DNA from: Mesonia oceanica
GTDB lineage: Bacteria > Bacteroidota > Bacteroidia > Flavobacteriales > Flavobacteriaceae
Reading direction: 5' to 3'
NCBI RefSeq assembly: GCF_902499555.1
Contig: NZ_CABVMM010000001.1
Location: forward strand, 62,001-126,000
Length of the DNA: 64,000 nucleotides
Shown: piece by piece, positions 28,161-64,000 of the stretch
How the letters are laid out: every line of letters begins with the position of its first letter
Position numbering within the stretch: position 1 is the first letter of the stretch
Position numbers and translations under genes: made by a program
The notes under the pieces: generated by a model
What the model saw: only the letters and a program-made list of their open reading frames with translations
Databases searched by the model: none
Told to the model about the DNA's origin: nothing

Positions 28161-28180
28161 AATAAAGTTAAAGAATAAAC

Positions 28181-28215
28181 AAAAAACCCTCTGAAATTTT
28201 CAGAGGGTTTTTTGT
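28181..28215. terminator. Bidirectional terminator between lipoprotein gene and lepA
   Basis: ACCCTCTG pairs with CAGAGGGT around a seven-base loop, flanked by A6 on the left (28181-28186) and T6 on the right (28208-28213), so it serves both convergent genes. Confidence 0.9.
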
Positions 28216-28217
28216 TT

Positions 28218-61790: not shown

Positions 61791-63254
61791 TTACAGGTTA
61801 TTAATGTAATTCCCATAGAGATCTTGAAACTGAATTCCTTTAGAGAATCGGTGTTTACTTAATTTGTTATAAGCGGTTAATCCCCACAACAAAAACTCGG
61901 TTAAGAAATAACGATCTTCCTCGCTGGTTTCCGGTTGATATTTATCGATGAGGTTTTGTAGAGGTTTGATGTCTTTTAGTGTTTCTTGGTATTCCTTTTC
62001 ATTTAAATCGTCGGGTAACTCAACTCCGCTCGATTCAAAAAACCATTGTGTAACTTCATCATAAGGATTGTCTTCGTTCTGTTTTTCGAGTTTTTCAATC
62101 TTTGGAAATAATGTTGGAAAAATGCTTTTAATTGAATTTTCAATTAAATGTTGAGCAACAAACGCTGCACCTTCTTGTTCTCCTTCGTAAACCAATTCAA
62201 CTTTCCCGGTAATCGATGGAATGACCCCCATAAAATCACCTAAACGAAGGGTTGTTTCAGTATCCCCATTTTTTAGAGTACGACGTTCTGCTGTACTCAA
62301 TAAATTCTGAAATGCGGTAATACTCATCCGAGCACTAATTCCGCTTTTTTCATCTACATATTCGCTTTCCCGTGCTTCAAAACTAATTTGCTCTAAGATT
62401 TCCCGAGCTAAACCGGGTACTTTCACGTGATCTTTTTGATTAGCTTCCAAATTCGCTTCTTGCTCTGTAATGGTTTTTGCAATTTCTACGGTTTTCGGAT
62501 AGTGCGTTAAAATTTGCGAACCAATTCTATCTTTTAACGGCGTGACAATACTACCACGATTGGTATAATCTTCGGGATTGGCAGTAAATATAAATTGAAG
62601 GTCTAACGGCATTCTTAATTTAAAGCCTCGAATTTGAATATCGCCTTCTTGCAAAATATTGAACAATGCCACCTGAATTCTTGCCTGTAAATCGGGTAAT
62701 TCGTTGATCACAAAAATCCCACGATTTGCCCGTGGAATCATCCCAAAATGAATTACACGATCATCGGCATAACTCAGTTTTAAATTGGCAGCTTTAATGG
62801 GATCTACATCACCAATTAAATCGGCTACCGTTACATCGGGAGTCGCCAGTTTTTCTGAAAAACGCTCTTCGCGATGTAACCAAGAAATAGGTGTGTTATC
62901 TCCTTTTTCTTTTAAAGTTTCTTGGGCATATCTTGAAATGGGATGAAAAGGGTCATCGTTTATTTCTGAGCCTTCTACTACCGGAATATATTCATCCAAT
63001 AATTTAACCATCAGTCGAGCTAAACGGGTTTTTGCCTGTCCTCGTAAACCTAGTAAGTTGATATTATGTTTGGAAAGAATAGCACGTTCTAATTCAGGAA
63101 TTACGGTATCTTCATATCCATGAACACCTTCAAAAACTGTTTCGTTATTCTTTATTTTTTCAATTAAATTTTCACGAAGCTCTTCTTTGATGCTCTTACT
63201 TTGGTAACCTGCTTCTTTAAGTTCGCCAAAGGTTTTTATTTCTGTTAAATTCAT
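61791..63254 (-). CDS. MoxR/magnesium-chelatase-like AAA ATPase
   Basis: A AAA+ ATPase of 487 residues from ATG 63254; a longer frame starting at 63311 would translate the palindromic repeat as protein and is rejected. Walker A: LLGLRGQAKTRLARL; Walker B: GIFVINELPDLQARI; sensor and arginine-finger region: IFTANPEDYTNRGSI, TPLKDRIGSQI. The C-terminal helical domain is present. It resembles magnesium-chelatase subunit I/YehL-like ATPases, which act with a VWA-domain partner; the gene for such a partner is encoded upstream (63735-64000), with a DUF559 gene lying between the two. Confidence 0.88.
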   Translation of the reverse strand: MNLTEIKTFGELKEAGYQSKSIKEELRENLIEKIKNNETVFEGVHGYEDTVIPELERAILSKHNINLLGLRGQAKTRLARLMVKLLDEYIPVVEGSEINDDPFHPISRYAQETLKEKGDNTPISWLHREERFSEKLATPDVTVADLIGDVDPIKAANLKLSYADDRVIHFGMIPRANRGIFVINELPDLQARIQVALFNILQEGDIQIRGFKLRMPLDLQFIFTANPEDYTNRGSIVTPLKDRIGSQILTHYPKTVEIAKTITEQEANLEANQKDHVKVPGLAREILEQISFEARESEYVDEKSGISARMSITAFQNLLSTAERRTLKNGDTETTLRLGDFMGVIPSITGKVELVYEGEQEGAAFVAQHLIENSIKSIFPTLFPKIEKLEKQNEDNPYDEVTQWFFESSGVELPDDLNEKEYQETLKDIKPLQNLIDKYQPETSEEDRYFLTEFLLWGLTAYNKLSKHRFSKGIQFQDLYGNYINNL

Positions 63255-63283
63255 AGTATTTTTTATTTTACATCCCTCCCCGG

Positions 63284-63303
63284 CCCTCCCTTCGAAGGGA
63301 GGG
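63284..63303. repeat. Perfect 20-base GC-rich palindrome, left border of DUF559 cassette
   Basis: CCCTCCCTTCGAAGGGAGGG is a perfect palindrome with TTCGAA at the centre, preceded by CATCCCTCCCCGG (from 63272). A related palindrome lies in opposite orientation at the other end of the DUF559 gene. Confidence 0.8.
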
Positions 63304-63312
63304 AGGAACATT

Positions 63313-63684
63313 TTATGTGTTTTGATTTAATTCTTCTATGTAGTTAAGTATTCTTTGTTTTACAGAAGTTATCTTACTAAAAACTTCTTCATTAGTGAAT
63401 CTTAAAAAAGAAACTCCATGTTTTTCAATTTCTCCTTGTCTTTTAGCGTCTTCTATAAAATTATATTTATGAATTTTTCCATCTATTTCTATAGCTAGCC
63501 CGATTTCATGGCAATAAAAATCAACAATATAATTTAGCAGAGGAACTTGTCGGTGAAATTCTACTCCCAAAGATTTTTTACGAATATGTTGCCATACTAA
63601 ATCTTCAGCAGGAGTCATATTTTTTCTCAGCTCTCTAGCTCTAATTTTAAGATTTTTATTATATGGTATTATTTTATTCGCCAT
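63313..63684 (-). CDS. DUF559 endonuclease-like protein (Vsr/PD-(D/E)XK fold)
   Basis: 123 residues from ATG 63684. The fold is PD-(D/E)XK: a helix with LRKNMTPAEDLVWQHIRKKS, then LGVEFHRQVPLLNYIVDFYC (D as first catalytic residue), then GLAIEIDGKIHKY (E-x-D/K core), and a late strand GVSFLRFTNEEV. Such DUF559 proteins are very frequent in Bacteroidota, usually single genes set between unrelated genes and flanked by GC-rich palindromes. Their biological role is not known; homing-like or repeat-spreading activity has been considered. It interrupts the AAA ATPase/VWA pair. Confidence 0.85.
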   Translation of the reverse strand: MANKIIPYNKNLKIRARELRKNMTPAEDLVWQHIRKKSLGVEFHRQVPLLNYIVDFYCHEIGLAIEIDGKIHKYNFIEDAKRQGEIEKHGVSFLRFTNEEVFSKITSVKQRILNYIEELNQNT

Positions 63685-63698
63685 CAAAATTTAATTTA

Positions 63699-63730
63699 GC
63701 CCCTCTTTTGAAGAGGGGTTGGGGAGATGT
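63699..63730. repeat. GC-rich palindrome, right border of DUF559 cassette
   Basis: CCCCTCTTTTGAAGAGGGG (near-perfect palindrome, 63700-63718) followed by TTGGGGAGATGTT. Read on the minus strand it begins AACATCTCCCCAACCCCTC, parallel to ACATCCCTCCCCGGCCCTC of the left border, so the two borders are inverted copies of one family. Confidence 0.75.
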
Positions 63731-63734
63731 TAAT

Positions 63735-64000
63735 TTATCGTATTCTCTTTTTCCTATTCGATTCATAATCTTCAAAAATCATTTCTCCTAAACCACCTAA
63801 GCCCGTATAGTAGGCTTTTCCTTGATTAGACTCGGTAAACTCATCTACAAATTGCTGTAAATACGGGTCGGAAGTAATCATAAACGTGGTGATGGGAATA
63901 TTCAGTTTTCGAGCTTGTGCCGCCATATTGTAACATTTGTTCGTGATGTACGGGTCAAGTCCCATCGAGTTTTTATAATAAGTTCCATCAGGCATTCTTA
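63735..64000 (-). CDS. VWA-domain protein, C-terminal part
   Basis: The gene runs off the right edge; 88 codons are visible, ending KKRIR-stop at 63735. DGTYYKNSMGLDPYITNKCY, AAQARKLNIPITTFMITSDP and FVDEFTESNQGKAYYTGLGG match the end of von Willebrand factor A domains that pair with MoxR/magnesium chelatase-like ATPases (chelatase subunit D-like). The nucleotide-binding partner gene lies 480 bases downstream. The N-terminus and MIDAS site are outside the window. Confidence 0.75.
   Translation of the reverse strand, partial: RMPDGTYYKNSMGLDPYITNKCYNMAAQARKLNIPITTFMITSDPYLQQFVDEFTESNQGKAYYTGLGGLGEMIFEDYESNRKKRIR

Follow-up and report, generated by a model that had tools for sequence, protein, structure and literature searches.

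The DUF559 gene that lies between an AAA ATPase gene and its probable VWA partner in Mesonia oceanica probably belongs to a minimal mobile element of a class found in the Flavobacteriaceae, in which a homing-type nuclease of ~120 amino acids (DUF559) is combined with REP-like hairpins that carry heads on their outer sides. The hosts of this class appear to be mostly marine bacteria, and we read its members as REPIN-like elements that have a homing-type nuclease instead of a RAYT transposase. Mobility of the element class is well supported by the genome comparisons presented here. Recent movement of the copy in the window (the whole stretch of 64,000 nucleotides that was analysed) is not supported, and this copy may go back to an old insertion that was passed on vertically.

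The element at the AAA/VWA locus

The window closes with an operon-like run of minus-strand genes, VWA, DUF559 and AAA, in which the following features were recognised:

61791..63254, minus strand: AAA ATPase gene (AAA_5/Mg-chelatase-like), ATG start at 63254; neighbour downstream of the insertion
63270..63283, plus strand: head of the 3' border, ACATCCCTCCCCGG, directed away from the nuclease gene, from the sequence
63284..63303, no strand: 3' border hairpin, perfect 20-nt palindrome CCCTCCCTTCGAAGGGAGGG
63313..63684, minus strand: DUF559 gene, 123 aa, predicted nuclease with EDxHD/Vsr fold (PD-(D/E)XK superfamily), from PF04480, an AlphaFold2 (AF2) model, and profile and fold matches
63700..63718, no strand: 5' border hairpin, 19-nt near-palindrome CCCCTCTTTTGAAGAGGGG
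63719..63730, minus strand: head of the 5' border, ACATCTCCCCAA as read on the minus strand
63735..64000, minus strand: probable VWA partner gene, 3' end only, the rest lying past the window edge; neighbour upstream of the insertion

The DUF559 protein matches PF04480 at E 1e-28 (99.8 bits, against a Pfam gathering cut-off of 20.6), and the 87-aa VWA end contained in the window has no Pfam match, so that the label "VWA" rests on context and on the name used in a preliminary description of this DNA. That description had placed a perfect palindrome at 63284-63303 and a near-palindrome at 63700-63718, both of which are confirmed on the sequence, and had called them inverted copies of one family; they are indeed related and bear outward ACATC heads, but they are not identical copies. 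Both heads are C-rich, start with ACATC and sit on the outer side of their hairpins, and, as they are directed outward from the gene, we take 63270-63730 as the best limits of the element. Heads identical or similar to that of the 3' border were found at three other loci (L021, L023 and L028).

Strong hairpins in the window were defined by a perfect stem of 8 or more pairs, with 6 or more GC pairs among them, and a loop no longer than 7; the 64 kb contain two, as compared to an average of 0.05 when a first-order Markov model was simulated 20 times. The palindrome at 63284 is one of these two, and the hairpin at 63700 (8 pairs, 5 GC) falls just under the threshold. When folded as single-stranded DNA, the hairpin at 63690-63740 has a z of -4.2, with none of 200 shuffles as low, whereas the other border hairpin (z -1.6, 18/200 shuffles as low) is not clearly significant because of its C-rich surroundings. 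The only other hairpin in the window above the threshold, a 41-nt structure with a 17-bp perfect stem at 28177-28217, is possibly a transcription terminator.

Border palindromes were counted genome-wide, as had been proposed. GC hairpins of the form CCCCTCNNNNGAGGGG (at most 2 mismatches) are not enriched in the genome (21 vs 36 in the reversed control), and the 5'-border pattern ACATCYCYCN{1,5}CCCYCN{2,9}GRGGG occurs there once, so that multiplication of the window's own palindrome across its genome was not found with these two patterns. In 16 Mesonia genomes, the latter pattern has three copies (0 in the reversed-pattern control), all of which stand beside the DUF559 gene of the AAA/VWA locus. 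The pattern is narrow, having been modelled on the 5' border, and does not recognise the 3' border, the hairpin pair described below for genome G011 or the palindromes of the other Mesonia DUF559 copies. Several Mesonia genomes have a second DUF559 copy with several hairpins around it (L002, L088-L091, L106), and at L002 this copy lies, by our reading of the open reading frames, between DNA-ligase-like and helicase-like genes.

Occupied and unoccupied spacers in relatives

Matches to the AAA protein were obtained in 36 of 60 genomes, counting its own, 32 of these matches being strong and 4 weak or broken. We read 30 of the 32 strong loci, namely the window's own and 29 others, and excluded L043, in which VWA was not found, from the spacer comparison. 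The gap in this comparison is the distance between the last position of the VWA protein match and the start of AAA. Both occupied and unoccupied sites were observed among the 28 relatives with both genes located: two have a DUF559 gene in the spacer (G009 and G004), three have a GIY-YIG gene (G011, G003 and G015, by place, PF01541) surrounded by palindromes of another family, and the remaining 23 contain no nuclease of either kind. In these 23 relatives AAA starts 2-233 nt past the end of the VWA match, the cleanest empty site in a near relative measuring 39 nt (G007, L026). The search for empty sites that had been suggested was therefore successful, and since DUF559-free spacers are common among relatives, AAA and VWA were probably adjacent before the insertion, as had been inferred beforehand and as they are in most of the relatives read.

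No clear target-site duplication was seen when L020 was compared by eye with the near empty site L026, the flanks being AT-rich. In one relative, G011 (L023), the DUF559 gene is absent but a pair of DUF559-type hairpins with outward heads is retained, the appearance expected of a deletion derivative or of a REPIN.

Other observations were made at this spacer. In G034, which belongs to another genus, the VWA-AAA spacer has no DUF559 gene but contains two hairpins like the DUF559 borders (L036). A third repeat family, GCGC..GGGATTGAGC .. GCGACT.GCGAAAGCCCG .. GCGCC, is present in the VWA-AAA spacers of L027, L029, L030, L034 and L037, and in one Mesonia relative the AAA gene itself seems to be broken, with several stops in fragments (G012:C17:100252-101444).

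Inheritance and movement

The window copy and most of the site-specific groups considered below could be old insertions that were inherited vertically and lost in some lineages, with negligible mobility at present. We regard this explanation as unlikely, though a good part of the evidence agrees with it. The DUF559 protein of the window copy is 90% identical to that of G009 and 77% to that of G004, and the corresponding AAA identities are 96% and 76%; the divergence is thus roughly parallel among G000, G009 and G004, and vertical inheritance with losses fits the window copy. Among 95 close pairs of elements (at least 80% DNA identity; L122, L123 and 8 loci with less than 2 kb on a side excluded), flank similarity is present in 72, which again is in keeping with old insertions, but it is absent in the other 23. 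Between L152 and L160, homology begins exactly at the head, ACACCCC. The same element has, accordingly, been at different places, with shared places predominating. A search of plasmids gave 39 records, all with less than 60% identity.

In-frame and fused copies

DUF559 domains are also found inserted in frame within enzymes. Of the 30 leuS loci read, 6 (L050-L055) have the insert, in a loop where the editing domain begins, and 24 lack it; as judged by junction and Pfam, ileS, metH and recG are further in-frame hosts, and fusions occur with hemD, hisD, cutC and the gene of a PLP-dependent enzyme. We assembled 154 DUF559 domains, with exact duplicates and one domain of less than 70 aa excluded, in a sample that is biased because long frames were fetched deliberately. 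Ninety-two of these are labelled free and 62 are in-frame or fused (leuS 22, PLP enzyme 10, metH 9, hemD 9, recG 8, ileS 2, hisD 1, cutC 1). The catalytic-type D is retained in all 62 non-free domains and the E in 61. Scored hairpins lie on both sides of 29 and on at least one side of 45 of the 51 in-frame or fused domains tested, 22 lacking one on one or both sides, and the control gave both sides in 15 of 1504. Eight fusion proteins contained only DUF559 and host domains in a Pfam search at E <= 1e-10.

On the DUF559 tree, clades tend to be specific for a site (hemD 9/9, PLP enzyme 10/10, metH 8/9, and recG 8 plus one ileS), which means either inheritance or site-specific homing and, on the former reading, is a further point in favour of old insertions. 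The leuS inserts, however, do not fit it so simply: 16 of the 22 fall in one pure split (FastTree, support 0.75) and 6 fall outside, so that the leuS loop, to the extent that a protein tree can tell, was probably entered more than once.

Identities of insert and flank can be compared within the same groups, from which duplicate loci and the two-domain metH locus L234 were excluded; the PLP-enzyme group retained L213 beside L197, which is the same DNA over 3 kb. The outcome is mixed. Mean identity is lower in the insert than in the flank for leuS (0.60/0.78), metH (0.63/0.71) and recG (0.74/0.88), and higher for the PLP enzyme (0.83/0.81) and hemD (0.55/0.47), and in three groups the two are correlated with each other (rho 0.27 for leuS, 0.64 for recG and 0.30 for the PLP enzyme), as old insertions would have it. 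One pair stands against that explanation: between the leuS genes of G000 and G014, identity is 93-95% in the three 150-nt bins of the insert and 74-89% in the flank bins, apart from the one immediately to the left of the insert, which reaches 95%. When the empty leuS allele of G009 is compared instead, the flank bins of G000 are 80-95% identical to it, with only 88% in the bin left of the insert, and in most bins the G000 flanks are as close or closer to G009 than to G014. This pattern, seen in one pair only, is the expected trace of a movement that would have carried along a short co-converted tract. Horizontal transfer as a general rule for the in-frame copies is neither shown nor excluded.

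Several peculiarities of these genes may be recorded. One metH open frame of 1159 aa (L234) has two separate DUF559 domains at two sites. The leuS gene of G017 (L054) has a degenerate DUF559-like segment in frame and no palindromes, possibly a decayed or domesticated copy. An unrelated palindrome, read as HSELDSES or similar and resembling the ATTCCGAACTTG palindrome type, lies in frame in the same leuS loop in 3 of the 24 insert-less loci (L058, L061, L070) and also in the leuS gene of L001, farther downstream.

Palindrome types and the nuclease phylogeny

The association between the nuclease and its borders was examined at 79 DUF559 loci, nearly all from Flavobacteriaceae, that represent the best 80 of 483 confirmed places and for that reason lean towards the clade of the query. 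Within 180 nt of the gene, strong hairpins were scored upstream at 53 of these best-matching loci and downstream at 67; 45 loci have them on both sides and 75 on one side at least, with random segments of the same loci giving 5.4%, 7.5% and, for both sides, 0.6% (17/3037). One or both sides lack a scored hairpin at 34 of the 79.

Two palindrome types recur, type 1 being ACATC-C-rich with variable stems and type 2 having the form CACCCCTAAAGTCCCCTCAAGGGGAC. On a tree of the 79 proteins, still drawn from the best of the 483 places, 70 rows have exactly one type (44 type 2, 26 type 1), 8 have neither and one has both. Types 1 and 2 change into one another only 3 times among the 70 typed rows, and the type-2 label requires 6 changes as compared to a mean of 26.1 when shuffled (0/500 as low). 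Palindrome type follows the phylogeny of the nuclease, and host relatedness contributes to this. NORP82, a metagenome-assembled Flavobacterium, has copies of both types, each in the matching nuclease clade (L129, L183), and Pontibacter, from a different family, has type 2 with its own divergent nuclease.

Type-2 palindromes were found in 27 of 299 genomes of the family (own included; the reversed-pattern control gave 0 among the entries listed), with up to 23 copies in G114 and 24 in G171, and DUF559 at E <= 1e-12 in 109 of the 299. DUF559 is present in 22 of the 27 type-2 genomes, 5 being without it at this cut-off, and in 87 of the other 272 (odds ratio 9.4, p 7e-7, uncorrected for relatedness). 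For 82 of the 103 type-2 places, proximity could be judged among the DUF559 places listed, and 21 places in 10 genomes lie near a DUF559 gene; omitted from this comparison were 21 places in G171 (contig C1, for which no DUF559 is listed) and in G194 and G239 (no DUF559 at E <= 1e-12). The association of the DUF559 family with co-varying, head-bearing hairpins is solid.

The order of type-2-like copies (at most 5 substitutions) around DUF559 varies among 49 loci, R-DUF-F (12), R-DUF-FR (7), -DUF-FR (7) and FR-DUF-F (6) being the common arrangements. The full order FR-DUF-FR is found in 2, and the window copy has the simpler F-DUF-R. We read the type-2 layout as a gene between two REPIN-like pairs or their remains.

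It is this REPIN-like topology that raises the question of a RAYT-type Y1 transposase as the moving enzyme, the hairpins then being ordinary REP/REPIN sequences with DUF559 as a passenger sitting among them. Y1 transposases (PF01797, Y1_Tnp, the superfamily of the RAYTs) are common enough for this, in 104 of the 299 family genomes and 14 of the 27 type-2 genomes, and G194 has Y1_Tnp and 9 type-2 copies without a DUF559 gene at E <= 1e-12. We nevertheless judge this explanation quite unlikely: the statistical link between type 2 and Y1 is weak (odds ratio 2.2, p 0.058) next to that with DUF559, the palindrome type tracks the DUF559 phylogeny, and the genome from which the window comes has no PF01797 match at E <= 1e-5.

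The predicted nuclease

The window's DUF559 protein was modelled with AlphaFold2 (pLDDT 90.4), and the model has only two Foldseek matches at E <= 0.001, namely 3hrl (E 1e-7) and 3r3p (E 9e-4), the latter being the catalytic domain of I-Bth0305I (TM 0.80 on the target). Weaker matches, with E values of 0.01 to 0.2, are to PvuRts1I and Vsr (1cw0, 1vsr). A profile search likewise has 3hrl (E 2e-30) and I-Bth0305I (E 5e-7) as its first two matches. E27, D55, E66, G69, H72 and D79 are invariant in A3, D68 being nearly so, and all of these plus D68 are invariant in A1; we presume that these conserved residues are the ones of the named EDxHD motif. On the strength of model and profile, the protein is a predicted nuclease with a homing-endonuclease-type fold, and cleavage by it is an inference. 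In PADLOC the window protein is similar to mREase_II (E 2e-5) and DpdF (E 5e-4), as is the L002 copy (E 2e-6 and E 7e-7, respectively); the leuS copy has no match there.

A scan of six loci with Rfam at gathering cut-offs, one of them leuS, gave no match, and a known RNA family is rejected for these loci.

A role of DUF559 in host defence or in Vsr-like repair, with hairpins serving as terminators or mRNA stabilisers of the operon, is highly improbable, for although Vsr structures match the model weakly (E 0.1-0.2) and the PADLOC similarities of the window and L002 copies are likewise weak, neither window hairpin is followed by a T-run and both bear heads, such hairpins flank many genes on both sides and are translated in frame inside enzymes, the six Rfam-scanned loci are blank and the gene is patchy among close relatives.

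A proposed mode of movement and expression

Most likely it is DUF559 itself that moves the unit, in a homing-like manner. This is an inference, without data on cleavage, excision or transposition. The nuclease, as the inferred mobilising enzyme, would recognise and cut either the DNA of the head-hairpins, its putative recognition sites, or the empty target, and host recombination or repair might then fill the break with a copy of the element. If the gene were deleted, REPIN-like hairpin pairs would remain, and these could be spread in trans.

The orientation of neighbouring genes bears on expression. In 59 of 72 loci (from the best 80 of 483 places) the upstream neighbour has the same orientation as DUF559 (p 4e-8), and the downstream neighbour has it in 37 of the 72, which is random; these figures rest on simple ORF calls, with 7 of 79 loci at contig edges excluded. 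Co-orientation on the upstream side only suggests that DUF559 is expressed by read-through from the upstream gene, itself an inferred step. Such expression would favour insertion just after genes or, as the other route, in frame in tolerant loops of essential enzymes, where the nuclease would be made as part of the host protein.

The preliminary description had proposed that nuclease and borders form a small mobile unit, comparable in logic to REP/RAYT elements or homing nucleases. The proposal is largely borne out by the DUF559-free sites, which are common, and by the palindromes, which are not distributed independently of DUF559 genes, with neither cleavage nor transposition demonstrated. 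The comparison was apt as well, in that type-2 palindromes occur in inverted pairs and the protein matches the catalytic domain of a homing endonuclease.

Relation to known systems

For REP and REPIN sequences we follow the definitions given in PMC3116915, PMC6006769 and PMC3733652. In the available text of PMC3733652, the RAYT transposase is the proposed mobilising partner of GTAG-type REP palindromes and none is named for the CGTC class. Like the REPIN/RAYT systems, DUF559 elements have short, one-headed palindromes in inverted pairs beside a co-varying nuclease-type gene, and inverted doublets with outward heads are present as FR pairs at many of the 49 type-2 loci, as F-DUF-R in the window and as the gene-less pair of L023. 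They differ in that the enzyme is a nuclease of the EDxHD/Vsr fold (PF04480) rather than an HUH Y1 tyrosine transposase, the heads read ACATC or ACACC followed by C-rich sequence (ACAYCCCC-like) in place of the GTAG tag, the elements also sit in frame within essential genes, and the 5'-border pattern of the window, in contrast to the high copy number of REPINs, is single in its genome. Since tests for the RAYT and GTAG features were negative, we do not class the DUF559 element as a member of REPIN/RAYT; by analogy, it may work like a REPIN system with a different enzyme.

The EDxHD homing family is described, with I-Bth0305I as its example, in PMC3943268. The DUF559 catalytic domain is related to I-Bth0305I by profile and fold and has conserved catalytic residues; unlike it, DUF559 is without an intron or intein in the proteins scanned, has hairpin borders, occurs at many different sites and, at ~120 aa, leaves no room for an extra DNA-binding domain. 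The endonuclease-like protein NGO0050 (PDB 3hrl) belongs to the same family as DUF559, as judged from sequence (E 2e-30) and from fold (E 1e-7). In having palindromes within coding genes, DUF559 elements are like the Rickettsia palindromic elements (RPE) and the CGTC-tagged REPs, from which they differ in that the inserted DUF559 unit contains a nuclease gene. A literature search, in which subscription journals were thinly covered and many sources were accessible only in part, found no recognised account of DUF559 mobility or of DUF559 with palindromes, and an existing description is not excluded; within the same coverage, neither DUF559 and tRNA synthetases nor GIY-YIG and extragenic palindromes were found together.

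A GIY-YIG counterpart and implications

The Mesonia GIY-YIG nucleases, which have palindromes of their own, resemble the DUF559 element in layout and in occupying the AAA/VWA spacer of three relatives, and differ from it in nuclease fold and in palindromes, both of which are unrelated. The palindromes around GIY-YIG in this spacer (L023, L025, L029) are of the CTCGAGCGGAGTCGAG type, and scored hairpins lie on both sides at 11 of 27 small GIY-YIG loci (30 loci minus 3 with long proteins). An apparent solo copy of a CTCGAGCGGAGTCGAG-type palindrome was noted in L022 and L024.

It is an attractive but still tentative possibility that DUF559 elements form a distinct minimal class of selfish elements, consisting of a single-domain EDxHD-type nuclease and REPIN-like hairpins without transposase, intron or intein and able to persist, translated in frame, within essential enzymes, and that this design has evolved in these genomes also with GIY-YIG nucleases, whose palindromes are unrelated. 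With a second, unrelated enzyme that has co-varying palindromes, the question of what moves palindromic repeats becomes directly testable, and PF04480, a widespread and little-studied family, gains a concrete hypothesis. LeuRS, IleRS, MetH and RecG proteins with an in-frame nuclease domain whose catalytic residues are kept would represent a striking selfish gene, apparently unspliced, hiding in essential enzymes.
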